Origin: Emticicia sp. 21SJ11W-3
Lineage (GTDB): Bacteria; Bacteroidota; Bacteroidia; Cytophagales; Spirosomataceae
Length of the DNA: 64,000 bases
Direction of reading: 5' to 3'
Assembly (NCBI RefSeq): GCF_024138715.1
Contig: NZ_CP092074.1
Location: forward strand, 1 to 64,000
The notes beneath the pieces are model-generated. The model had not been told where the DNA came from and searched no databases. It saw only the letters and a program-made list of their open reading frames with translations. Positions 37,397-46,205 of this stretch are shown piece after piece; positions within the stretch are counted from its first letter, which is position 1; each line of letters opens with the position of its first letter. Position numbers and translations under genes: made by a program.

Positions 37397-38032
37397 ATGT
37401 CGTCAGATAAGTTTCAGAACAAATATCGTATTCCGTCTGCTCGGCACCCACATTGGGATTACGGGTCTAATGGAATCTATTTTATTACTGTTTGTACTAA
37501 AAATCGTCAGTATTTTCTGGGTGATTGTAAAGAAGGGATAATGAAATTATCTACGGCAGGGGCTATCGTACAAGGTTTTTGGCATGAAATCCCCAAACAT
37601 TTTCCATTCGTTACCTTAGGTGATTTCGTTGTAATGCCCAATCATATTCATGGCATTTTGATTTTTGATAAGACTAATATTAATAGTGAATCCAATATTG
37701 AGGTAGAGACAGGGCATTGCCCTGTCTCTACACAGAACGGTGAATTATCAAATGATAAAACTCATGCCCAATTACGGTTCAGAAATCAGGGTAAAAATAC
37801 AGTTTCATCAATTATTGGTTCTTATAAATCAATTTGCACAAAACATATTCACCCGATTGTACCTGATTTTGAATGGCAAAGCCGTTTCTGGGACAATATC
37901 ATTAGAGACGATAAGGATTTTAACGCGATTAGCCAATATATTATCAATAACCCATTAACCTGGGAAAATGATAAGCTATTTGGAGAGCAAACAGAAAACT
38001 TAATAGACGAGTCAGGAAATCCTGACAAGTGA
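37397..38032 (+). CDS. REP-associated tyrosine transposase (RAYT/TnpA_REP), copy 1, with in-frame palindrome
   Basis: A 211-residue protein related to the Y1 transposases of IS200/IS605. The metal-binding HxH motif is at residues 83-85 in [13 protein letters not shown], the N-terminal [19 protein letters not shown] is typical, and the C-terminal signature is [23 protein letters not shown]. The catalytic tyrosine is probably in the helix [15 protein letters not shown] but I cannot be sure. Codons 103-112 ([10 protein letters not shown]) are encoded by a perfect 29-base palindrome (37703-37731). RAYTs are single-copy domesticated transposases that move short REP hairpins. It sits between the AraC gene and leuC, 29 bases before leuC. 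Confidence 0.85.
37703..37731. repeat. REP-like palindrome inside RAYT copy 1
   Basis: Arms GTAGAGACAGGGCA (37703-37716) and TGCCCTGTCTCTAC (37718-37731) around a single T. It begins exactly on codon 103 in phase 0. GTAG at the foot of the hairpin is the tetranucleotide recognised by TnpA_REP proteins in enterobacteria. Confidence 0.88.
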
Positions 38033-41700: not shown

Positions 41701-41740
41701 TTGCCACGATGTACACAATTAAGACACAATGTTTCACAAT
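41701..41740 (+). repeat. Left inverted repeat of the GxxExxY element
   Basis: 40 bases starting TTGCCACGAT. It contains repeated ACACAAT-like words at 41713, 41724 and 41734 (spacing 11 and 10), plus a weaker CCACGAT at 41704. Confidence 0.85.
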
Positions 41741-41744
41741 TTTT

Positions 41745-42140
41745 ATGAAAGAGTACCAGCCACTACCAGCAAGTATTGAAGAAATTGGTAGAAAGATAAT
41801 AAGTGCTGCCTATAAAGTTCATTCTTCGCTTGGCCCAGGCTTATTGGAAAAAATATATGAAATCTGCCTGACTTATGAACTTCAGAAAATGAGATTAAAA
41901 GCAGAGAGACAGGTAATAGTTCCTGTAAAGTATGATGAACTTGTTTTTGAGGAAGGCCTCAGAATAGATATTTTGGTAGAAAATACAATTATAGTAGAAG
42001 TTAAAGCAGTTGATTTAGTTAACCCAATATGGAAAGCACAGGTATTGAGTTATTTAAAAATGACAAATAAACGCTTGGGATTTGTATTAAACTTTAATGT
42101 AATGTCAATGAAAGAGGGTATTCAAAGGGTAATATTGTGA
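41745..42140 (+). CDS. GxxExxY-family protein with PD-(D/E)XK nuclease-like motif
   Basis: A 131-residue protein. The family motif is GLLEKIY (Gly32, Glu35, Tyr38) after the helix IISAAYKVHSSLGP. A nuclease-like core follows: RIDILVENTIIVEVKAV with Asp75, Glu85 and Lys87 arranged as in PD-(D/E)XK enzymes. It ends LGFVLNFNVMSMKEGIQRVIL, also typical. Activity in the family is not established to my knowledge. I start at ATG 41745; an ATG at 41709 lies inside the left inverted repeat and adds 12 odd residues. The stop TGA (42138-42140) lies in the right repeat. Its place inside the leu operon has no metabolic sense and points to insertion. Confidence 0.88.
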   Translation: MKEYQPLPASIEEIGRKIISAAYKVHSSLGPGLLEKIYEICLTYELQKMRLKAERQVIVPVKYDELVFEEGLRIDILVENTIIVEVKAVDLVNPIWKAQVLSYLKMTNKRLGFVLNFNVMSMKEGIQRVIL

Positions 42141-45557: not shown

Positions 45558-45601
45558 AATAACGGCTTGGTTAATTTGTCATAGGGGTGGTTCTTGCGAT
45601 G

Positions 45602-45623
45602 GGGGTTCAAAATTTTGAACCCC
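45602..45623. repeat. REP-like palindrome in the murE leader
   Basis: 22-base perfect palindrome with arms GGGGTTCAAAA / TTTTGAACCCC. It is the same core as the palindrome inside RAYT copy 2 (45884-45911). On the minus strand it is preceded by GTAG, while the far end is degenerate (CCATC in place of CTAC). Confidence 0.88.
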
Positions 45624-45642
45624 TACAGACACATACCTTTTG

Positions 45643-45650: not shown

Positions 45651-46205
45651 TCAGATATAAAATTTATCTGCTTTCCAATTTTTTGGATTATTGTGGATGT
45701 AGTGAGAAATGGTATTATAAGACTCTTCGTTTCGTATGATATGTTCATGATAATTTCTTTGCCAGATTTGATTTTGAGAAAGAGTGGTTTCTCTATACCA
45801 TTTTGTTACGCCGATTTTAAACCCTCTGACAATTGAGCCAATAGAACGTGGTATAATTTTCTGATATTGGTTGATTTTCGGTAGTAGGGGTTCAAAATTT
45901 TGAACCCCTACATTGTCGGATGGTTTTATATAATCAGGTCGTAATTCAATAATGCCATGCATATGATTAGGCATAATGATAAATTCATGCAGAAAGACAT
46001 CAGGAAAATGACCCGGTATGCCCATCCAACATTTATGGGCAACCTTTCCTAATTCATTCAATATCATTTGGTTTTCTCTGATTTCACCAAAGATACAGAG
46101 CCTTTCTTTCGTGCAGATTGTTATGAAATAAAGACCTTCTTTTGAATAATCATAACCCTGTAAACGAATCGAACGACGATGATATATATCAGGATGATAA
46201 GGCAT
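45651..46205 (-). CDS. REP-associated tyrosine transposase (RAYT/TnpA_REP), copy 2, with in-frame palindrome
   Basis: A 184-residue Y1-transposase relative. The N-terminus YSKEGLYFITICTKERLC, the HxH motif at residues 81-83 in IIMPNHMHGIIEL, the helix RSIGSIVRGFKIGVTKWYRE (with a candidate catalytic tyrosine) and the C-terminal IWQRNYHEHIIRNEESYNTISHYIHNNP match copy 1 in order. Codons 99-108 (VGVQNFEPLL) are encoded by a perfect 28-base palindrome (45884-45911), placed as in copy 1. The gene starts one base after the stop of the alpha-rhamnosidase gene, with which it may be cotranscribed. A near-copy of its palindrome follows 28 bases beyond its stop. Confidence 0.85.
   Translation of the reverse strand: MPYHPDIYHRRSIRLQGYDYSKEGLYFITICTKERLCIFGEIRENQMILNELGKVAHKCWMGIPGHFPDVFLHEFIIMPNHMHGIIELRPDYIKPSDNVGVQNFEPLLPKINQYQKIIPRSIGSIVRGFKIGVTKWYRETTLSQNQIWQRNYHEHIIRNEESYNTISHYIHNNPKNWKADKFYI
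45884..45911. repeat. REP-like palindrome inside RAYT copy 2
   Basis: Two perfect arms, GTAGGGGTTCAAAA (45884-45897) and TTTTGAACCCCTAC (45898-45911), with no central base. It begins in phase 0 at codon 99 on the minus strand. GTAG stands at the foot of the hairpin. Confidence 0.9.

Follow-up and report, generated by a model that had tools for sequence, protein, structure and literature searches.

Two RAYT genes with an internal palindrome

The window, i.e. the whole analysed stretch of 64,000 nucleotides (positions 1 to 64,000 of contig NZ_CP092074.1, Emticicia sp. 21SJ11W-3), contains two genes for REP-associated tyrosine transposases (RAYTs), each with a palindrome in frame (Table 1). The encoded proteins, RAYT1 and RAYT2, are 34% identical over the aligned part. 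With the Pfam model Y1_Tnp, RAYT2 and RAYT1 scored 22.1 and 21.8 bits, both below the curated cut-off of 23; with NCBIfam REP_Tyr_transpos (REP-associated tyrosine transposase) they scored 65.4 and 58.1 bits, both below the cut-off of 80. Two more RAYTs of the same kind (L005 and L006) are encoded in this genome.

Table 1. Features of the two RAYT loci and of one further gene in the window.
Feature	Position	Strand	Description
RAYT1 (TnpA_REP)	37397..38032	+	211 aa; motifs include NHIH, WQ, YIINNP
Internal double-foot REP of RAYT1	37703..37731	.	29 bp, GTAGAGACAGGGCATTGCCCTGTCTCTAC; phase 0, codon 103; core AGGGCATTGCCCT, different from that of RAYT2
Linker and helix αC of RAYT1	37769..37843	+	residues 125-149
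PDDEXK_3 gene	41709..42140		PD-(D/E)XK nuclease superfamily
Downstream REP, RAYT2 family	45599..45626	.	just 3' of RAYT2; 22-bp core (45602-45623) identical to that of the internal REP; one foot intact
RAYT2 (TnpA_REP, HuH/Y1 family)	45651..46205	-	184 aa; motifs MPNHMHG, WQRNYHEHIIR, YIHNNP
Linker and helix αC of RAYT2	45801..45869	-	residues 113-135, QYQKIIPRSIGSIVRGFKIGVTK; proposed REP-specificity segment, from the covariation scan
Internal double-foot REP of RAYT2	45884..45911	.	perfect 28-bp palindrome, GTAGGGGTTCAAAATTTTGAACCCCTAC; phase 0

Judged by their sequence features, RAYT1 and RAYT2 fit TnpA_REP subclass 2.4 of Quentin et al. 2018 (PMC6006769), equated with Bertels group 4 in their Table 1. 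According to the passages on this subclass, its members have the motifs NH[IFV]H, WQ and YIxNNP, a variable insertion between β3 and αC, and double-foot REPs, which may form part of the reading frame at a place between the HuH motif and αC; the subclass is common in Cyanobacteria and Bacteroidetes, with scattered members in other phyla. WQ and YIxNNP are present in both proteins. The HuH motif of RAYT1 (NHIH) lies inside the printed set and that of RAYT2 (NHMH) outside it. In the 84 RAYTs surveyed below, the segment from HuH/β3 to αC, delimited by regular expression, ranged from 13 to 94 residues, with the loop end found in 71 of them, and both genes of the window have a REP of the form GT[AG]G...C[TC]AC within or next to them. 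Subclass 2.6 has similar motifs (WQ, YIH[QN]NP), and an in-gene REP is not reported for it in the same passages. Since in-frame REPs of subclass 2.4 are in print, the core observation is not new and the window adds two members; the preliminary description, made from the letters of the window, had taken it to be undescribed for RAYTs of Bacteroidota.

The same description had placed a perfect palindrome of 28 bases at codon 99 of RAYT2, in phase 0 and 13 residues past MPNHMHGI. Its position and letters were verified, and it encodes V99-L107 (VGVQNFEPL). The palindrome of RAYT1 likewise differs inside and has the same phase, as had been stated. The 22-bp core of the RAYT2 palindrome occurs at five exact places in the genome (internally, 3' of the gene and at three more) and at nine when up to two mismatches are allowed. 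An identical copy of the RAYT1 29-mer lies on the other strand at 3059274, with variants at 3006943 and 3007168; a same-core palindrome outside the gene was not found within about 10 kb of RAYT1. The palindromes of both genes thus recur elsewhere in the genome, as members of a dispersed family do in a REPtron.

RAYT1 is located directly upstream of a gene named leuC by us, whose product belongs to the aconitase family by Pfam. The PDDEXK_3 gene lies amid genes read as leucine biosynthesis, so that this one biosynthetic cluster holds two accessory genes.

Loop palindromes in related RAYTs

A loop palindrome with an arm score of at least 10 was present in 41 of 84 RAYTs, comprising the four of this genome and 80 relatives, the top of a list of 524 ordered by their similarity to RAYT2. 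Within the bacterial family of the window, 64 of 150 genomes drawn from the family gave a RAYT match at E <= 1e-15, and 31 of 75 analysable RAYTs carried a loop palindrome; the remaining four of the 79 loci (L154, L161, L169 and L182) had no RAYT frame. RAYTs devoid of a loop palindrome at arm score of at least 10 thus numbered 43 of 84 and 44 of 75, respectively, including L005 and L006. In an alignment, L147 shows an in-frame gap of 27 nt in place of the palindrome present in its close relative L131.

Palindrome density was 4.26 per kb in the loop and 0.10 in the remaining RAYT gene (79 of 84 RAYTs with a definable loop), a difference of about 40-fold. The corresponding value was 0.031 for 533 other ORFs of 200 aa or more, excluding palindromes in their first 60 and last 30 bases. 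The resulting 37 of 79 loops with a palindrome is an undercount: L019, L028, L059, L067 and L073 were omitted, although the loops of L059, L067 and L028 contain one, and the loop palindrome of L039 was placed outside the loop. None of 1580 dinucleotide-shuffled loops contained such a palindrome, which together with the densities excludes a chance origin. The phases 0, 1 and 2 were represented 70:10:0 among 80 loop palindromes; at arm 9 the two sets gave 49:7:0 and 31:8:0. Insertion in phase 2 would give an in-frame TAG. As phase 0 is so much commoner than phase 1, descent with turnover in place seems a better account than repeated independent insertion. As shown by comparison of these sequences, the loop between the HuH strand and αC is the favoured site of palindromes in RAYTs of several bacterial phyla, as judged by record titles. 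A preferred in-frame site after HxH had been proposed for the window, rightly in view of loop enrichment and phases. The accompanying test, by which the proposal would fall if most loops lacked a palindrome, had a mixed outcome, about half of the RAYTs having one.

In-frame palindromes within ORFs are also a property of Rickettsia palindromic elements, and Di Nocera et al. 2013 (PMC3733652), in their sections on such repeats, describe REPs located inside many genes in other species. A palindromic coding element of this kind, spreading in frame through many genes, is nevertheless hardly credible as the source of the RAYT palindromes. None of the 15 other pattern matches in this genome lies within an open frame of at least 120 aa (the largest frame has 99 aa), and any palindrome is about 136 times rarer per kb in the 533 control ORFs than in the RAYT loop. 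Moreover, the Rickettsia elements are tagged by CGTC and occur in many unrelated host genes, and CGTC repeats are said to have no dedicated transposase (PMC3733652), whereas the palindromes studied here have GTAG. Insertion into many unrelated genes was not seen among the pattern matches in this genome, and this explanation was rejected; the analogy drawn in the preliminary description is accordingly weak. The intragenic GTAG/CGTC REPs of Di Nocera et al. are similar in that they include GTAG-tagged palindromes in genes and feet that give TAG stops; unlike the REPs studied here, they are mostly located in unrelated genes, a large number of which serve DNA synthesis and repair (PMC3733652). According to the same sections, recB carries a different REP in each of two Xanthomonas species at roughly one place, and GTAG repeats are reported for Proteobacteria, Cyanobacteria, Chloroflexi and the PVC group (PMC3733652).

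Some loops showed peculiarities. That of L197 contains two different palindromes with the cores AGGGCATGCCCT and AACGCATGCGTT, and its relative L195 has tandem half-copies of a palindrome. The peptides GQPQGIAPT and VGAGFTPAHNRATARVA, or close variants identified by eye, recur in the loops of L030, L031, L032, L045, L047, L050, L054, L066 and L077; they look like translated, partly decayed palindromes.

Covariation of the palindrome core with helix αC

Sliding protein windows in an alignment of 159 RAYTs were compared with the similarity of palindrome cores by partial correlation allowing for the remaining protein identity. For internal palindromes (68 RAYTs) covariation peaked at 0.475 in the linker and αC, directly after the loop. 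The peak was at the same place for flanking palindromes (0.354; 72 RAYTs) and for RAYTs with flanking palindromes only (0.453; 36 RAYTs), and in each set 0 of 200 permutation maxima reached it. Its position was kept when the data were thinned to less than 70, 60 and 55% identity, with 0, 0 and 3 of 300 permutations reaching the maximum in the internal set and 0, 1 and 26 of 300 in the flank-only set. Since the peak is also seen in flank-only RAYTs, physical linkage inside the gene is not its whole cause. Smaller signals were found elsewhere: N-terminal columns 130-140 averaged 0.19 in the internal set, and in the flank-only set columns 267-281 averaged 0.23 and the window at 589 reached 0.41. 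For internal palindromes, a Mantel comparison of whole protein halves, which included the broken gene L178, gave no advantage to the C-half (partial correlation 0.403 for N given C vs 0.217 for C given N); it was uninformative as a localiser, and localisation is taken from the sliding window.

In a survey of pairs with N-part and distal identity both of at least 0.6, pairs with the same core (n = 111) had an identity of 0.83 in the linker-αC segment and 0.77 in the N-part. In pairs with different cores (n = 100) identity was 0.43 in the segment, 0.67 in the N-part and 0.66 distally. Clustering by the linker-αC segment yielded a table of helix types and cores with exceptions in every larger cluster. 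Examples are ISPKSGSISTIIRSYK with GTTGCATGCAAC and IPRSIGSIVRGFK with TCAAAATTTTGA; FGPQSKNLGSIVRGFK is listed as first member of one pair and ARGGCATGCCYT as second member of another. The covariation scan, thinning, pair survey and helix-core table omit L178, L168, L183, L067, L028, L073, L177 and L070, which are broken, truncated or doubtful.

In E. coli TnpA_REP, residue K82 on the DNA-binding helix α3 contacts a REP base, the bulge C27 (Corneloup et al. 2021, PMC8266576). We take αC as the counterpart of this helix from the order of elements; in a profile alignment to 4er8 just the end of αC, starting at residue 80, is aligned, and the first part of the helix is not. The RAYTs studied here resemble the REPtrons of E. 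coli, Stenotrophomonas and Marinomonas in being REP-specific HuH nucleases with a DNA-binding helix that co-evolve with their cognate REPs. These REPtrons differ in belonging to groups 2 and 3 and in having REPs that are bulged or have distinctive loops, with a GTAG motif in front; an internal REP is not mentioned in the relevant parts of that paper (PMC8266576).

Joint exchange of core and helix was apparent at the leuC locus. L172 and L117, which lie at this same locus upstream of leuC in the genus of the window, are identical in 89% of their DNA in the N-half and in 90% in the distal part, and differ in the palindrome core, the linker (54%) and the start of αC. There L172 agrees instead with RAYT1 (71%), to which it is less closely related in the rest of the gene. 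Informative sites of the L172/L117/RAYT1 mosaic were distributed 94:17 outside vs 9:27 inside this region (Fisher p = 7e-11). A 126-nt cassette of L117 has 69-76% identity to ISPK-type genes. When the palindrome is left aside, its best matches are short (82% of 51 nt in L088, which is ISPK-type, and 82% of 50 nt in L172), so that the right edge of exchange seems to lie within αC; a donor was not found. This close pair of intact genes thus provides one clear case in which REP core and linker-αC appear to have been exchanged jointly while the rest of the gene was kept. Together with the covariation, the mosaic directly supports the notion of a replaceable substrate cassette put forward in the preliminary description.

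At the same locus and in the same genus, the RAYT1 relatives L178 and L183 lack the C-half from the internal to the 3' palindrome and retain one full palindrome, which looks like a deletion from palindrome to palindrome (REP x REP).

Conservation and possible role of the embedded REP

In 83 orthologous pairs with an N-part identity of at least 70%, the palindrome was 91% identical, as compared to 42% for 4-fold sites of the N-part and 44% for flanking loop DNA; L168, L067, L028, L073, L177, L070 and all RAYTs with two or more loop palindromes are omitted from this comparison. At 4-fold sites, 76 of 80 were identical within the palindrome vs 223 of 469 outside the loop in 16 pairs, which were hand-picked, have shared members and were required to have a palindrome in both partners. 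RAYT2 and its syntenic orthologue L105, located at the same rhamnosidase-murE locus, agree at 28 of 28 palindrome positions and at 6 of 21 4-fold sites outside. In the genus of Algoriphagus iocasae (locus L086) such a RAYT was present in three of 72 genomes. The two other RAYTs are 86% and 69% identical to that of L086 and have the palindrome identical at 28 of 28 positions. In all three genomes a search for the core, allowing up to two mismatches in 18, gave matches in the RAYT gene only.

Nineteen of 41 internal palindromes had a match, at 80% or more, among the palindromes located up to about 10 kb from the gene concerned, as compared to 0.87 expected from other loci. The strict double-foot pattern occurred at 0 to 101 places per genome in 19 genomes, 16 of which had at least one. 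When core patterns were used in 14 genomes, copies of the core were found only within the RAYT gene in seven (two of six and three of three allowing up to two mismatches, two of five by exact match); two of these seven, G005 and G017, hold other double-foot palindromes with different cores, and some of the seven are incomplete drafts. The test by which the cassette would have to match dispersed repeats thus also gave a mixed picture. G236 has two different palindromes, both within its RAYT. A consistent difference between the feet of internal and flanking REPs, as might serve self-protection, was looked for; foot differences followed no steady pattern, and this idea was rejected.

These data bear on why the internal copy persists. 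It might be held identical, without selection, by gene conversion from REPs in the flanks or dispersed in the genome, or by repeated insertion of such REPs. The matches of 19 internal palindromes to flanking ones are in line with this, as are the same-family copies in the genome of the window, the apparent REP x REP deletions in L178 and L183, and the fact that internal and 3' REPs belong to one family in L172 and likewise in L117, where the 3' copy is interrupted. In the three Algoriphagus genomes, however, no conversion donor is visible for the identical 28-mer, which points to selection on the internal copy. G005 and G010 are likewise devoid of further copies of their own core, and G015 and G017 by exact match only, with the reservation that applies to G005 and G017 and to the drafts. 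We therefore regard homogenisation as unlikely. Slightly less likely still is that REPs land widely and persist where an in-frame insertion is tolerated, such as in a peripheral loop, the internal copy having no role. This comes near to the opinion of Quentin et al. 2018, as worded in their passages on subclass 2.4, that in-gene REPs may affect protein activity little (PMC6006769). The loop is indeed variable in length and sequence, and about half of the RAYTs are without a palindrome. Tolerance of the loop, as suggested in the preliminary description, is thus true, but it is insufficient given the conservation at synonymous sites and the genomes in which the sole copy of the core found is the internal one. 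The contrast between palindrome and flanking loop DNA, the covariation of the core with αC and the lack of a detectable source copy in seven of 14 genomes speak against passive insertion as well. A hairpin in the mRNA that acts in cis on translation or transcript stability, without being recognised by the RAYT protein, would agree with the strong predicted RNA hairpins (-18.9 and -23.5 kcal/mol). Compensated changes should be harmless to such a hairpin; in orthologues, however, the sequence of the stem is conserved as such, and it varies together with αC. We consider such a function very improbable.

The palindrome of RAYT2 is, in our judgement, probably the protein's own cognate double-foot REP, lodged in the HuH-αC loop in the manner of subclass 2.4, where it would serve as master copy and self-recognition site. 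As shown by comparison of related genes, core and linker-αC change together, and the nucleotide sequence of the embedded REP is kept also in genomes where no further copy of the core was found. TnpA_REP proteins bind and cut single-stranded REP hairpins. αC would read the hairpin stem, and gene and target would then form one heritable unit. Proteins of subclass 2.4 would thereby recognise the REP in their own gene, retained as a master copy; as the REP is a perfect palindrome, the same hairpin is presented on both strands. As to its use, the protein might most likely keep its own expression or activity in check, either by binding or nicking the hairpin that its gene forms as single-stranded DNA or by binding its mRNA; we put this forward with considerable reserve, as a prediction. 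In genomes with a single copy the target would be the gene itself, and autoregulation or self-targeting is the simplest reading. Alternatively, within the same frame, the internal REP might be a retained seed for the dispersed family, and where REPs are dispersed the unit of gene and target might also seed that family. Stated more generally, the internal REP may be a selected cis element, site and reader helix may form an exchangeable specificity cassette, and a RAYT in a single-copy genome may be a domesticated transposase that targets itself in an autoregulatory or self-mobilising way; this wider proposal is tentative, though a little less so than that of limited expression or activity.

If true, the position of the target beside the reader helix would explain their co-inheritance and a re-specification of the RAYT/REP pair in one step. 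It would bear on the role of RAYTs for their hosts and on how RAYT and REP stay matched while evolving, and the table of helix types and REP cores would represent a set of testable predictions. The printed reading of in-gene REPs would shift from probably of little effect to probably functional. The RAYTs described here share NH-x-H, WQ and YIxNNP, the HuH-αC insertion and double-foot in-frame REPs with subclass 2.4; covariation with αC, cassette exchange, conservation at synonymous sites and only-copy genomes go beyond the account given in the passages on that subclass (PMC6006769). These four points were not found in the open-access literature searched, the supplements (Quentin Fig. S10, Di Nocera Additional file 3) lying outside it.

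Two further observations concern the feet. Inverted symmetry extends past the GTAG/CTAC feet by 10 bases in L040 (10273-10320) and in L122 (on the 5' side of the RAYT), and by about 6-8 bases in L010, L014 and L015, possibly by template switching at the hairpin. In L131, L136, L172 and L180 a palindrome starts at the last coding base, and the GTAG foot supplies the stop codon TAG of the RAYT; a stop derived from GTAG was present in 7 of 159 RAYTs.
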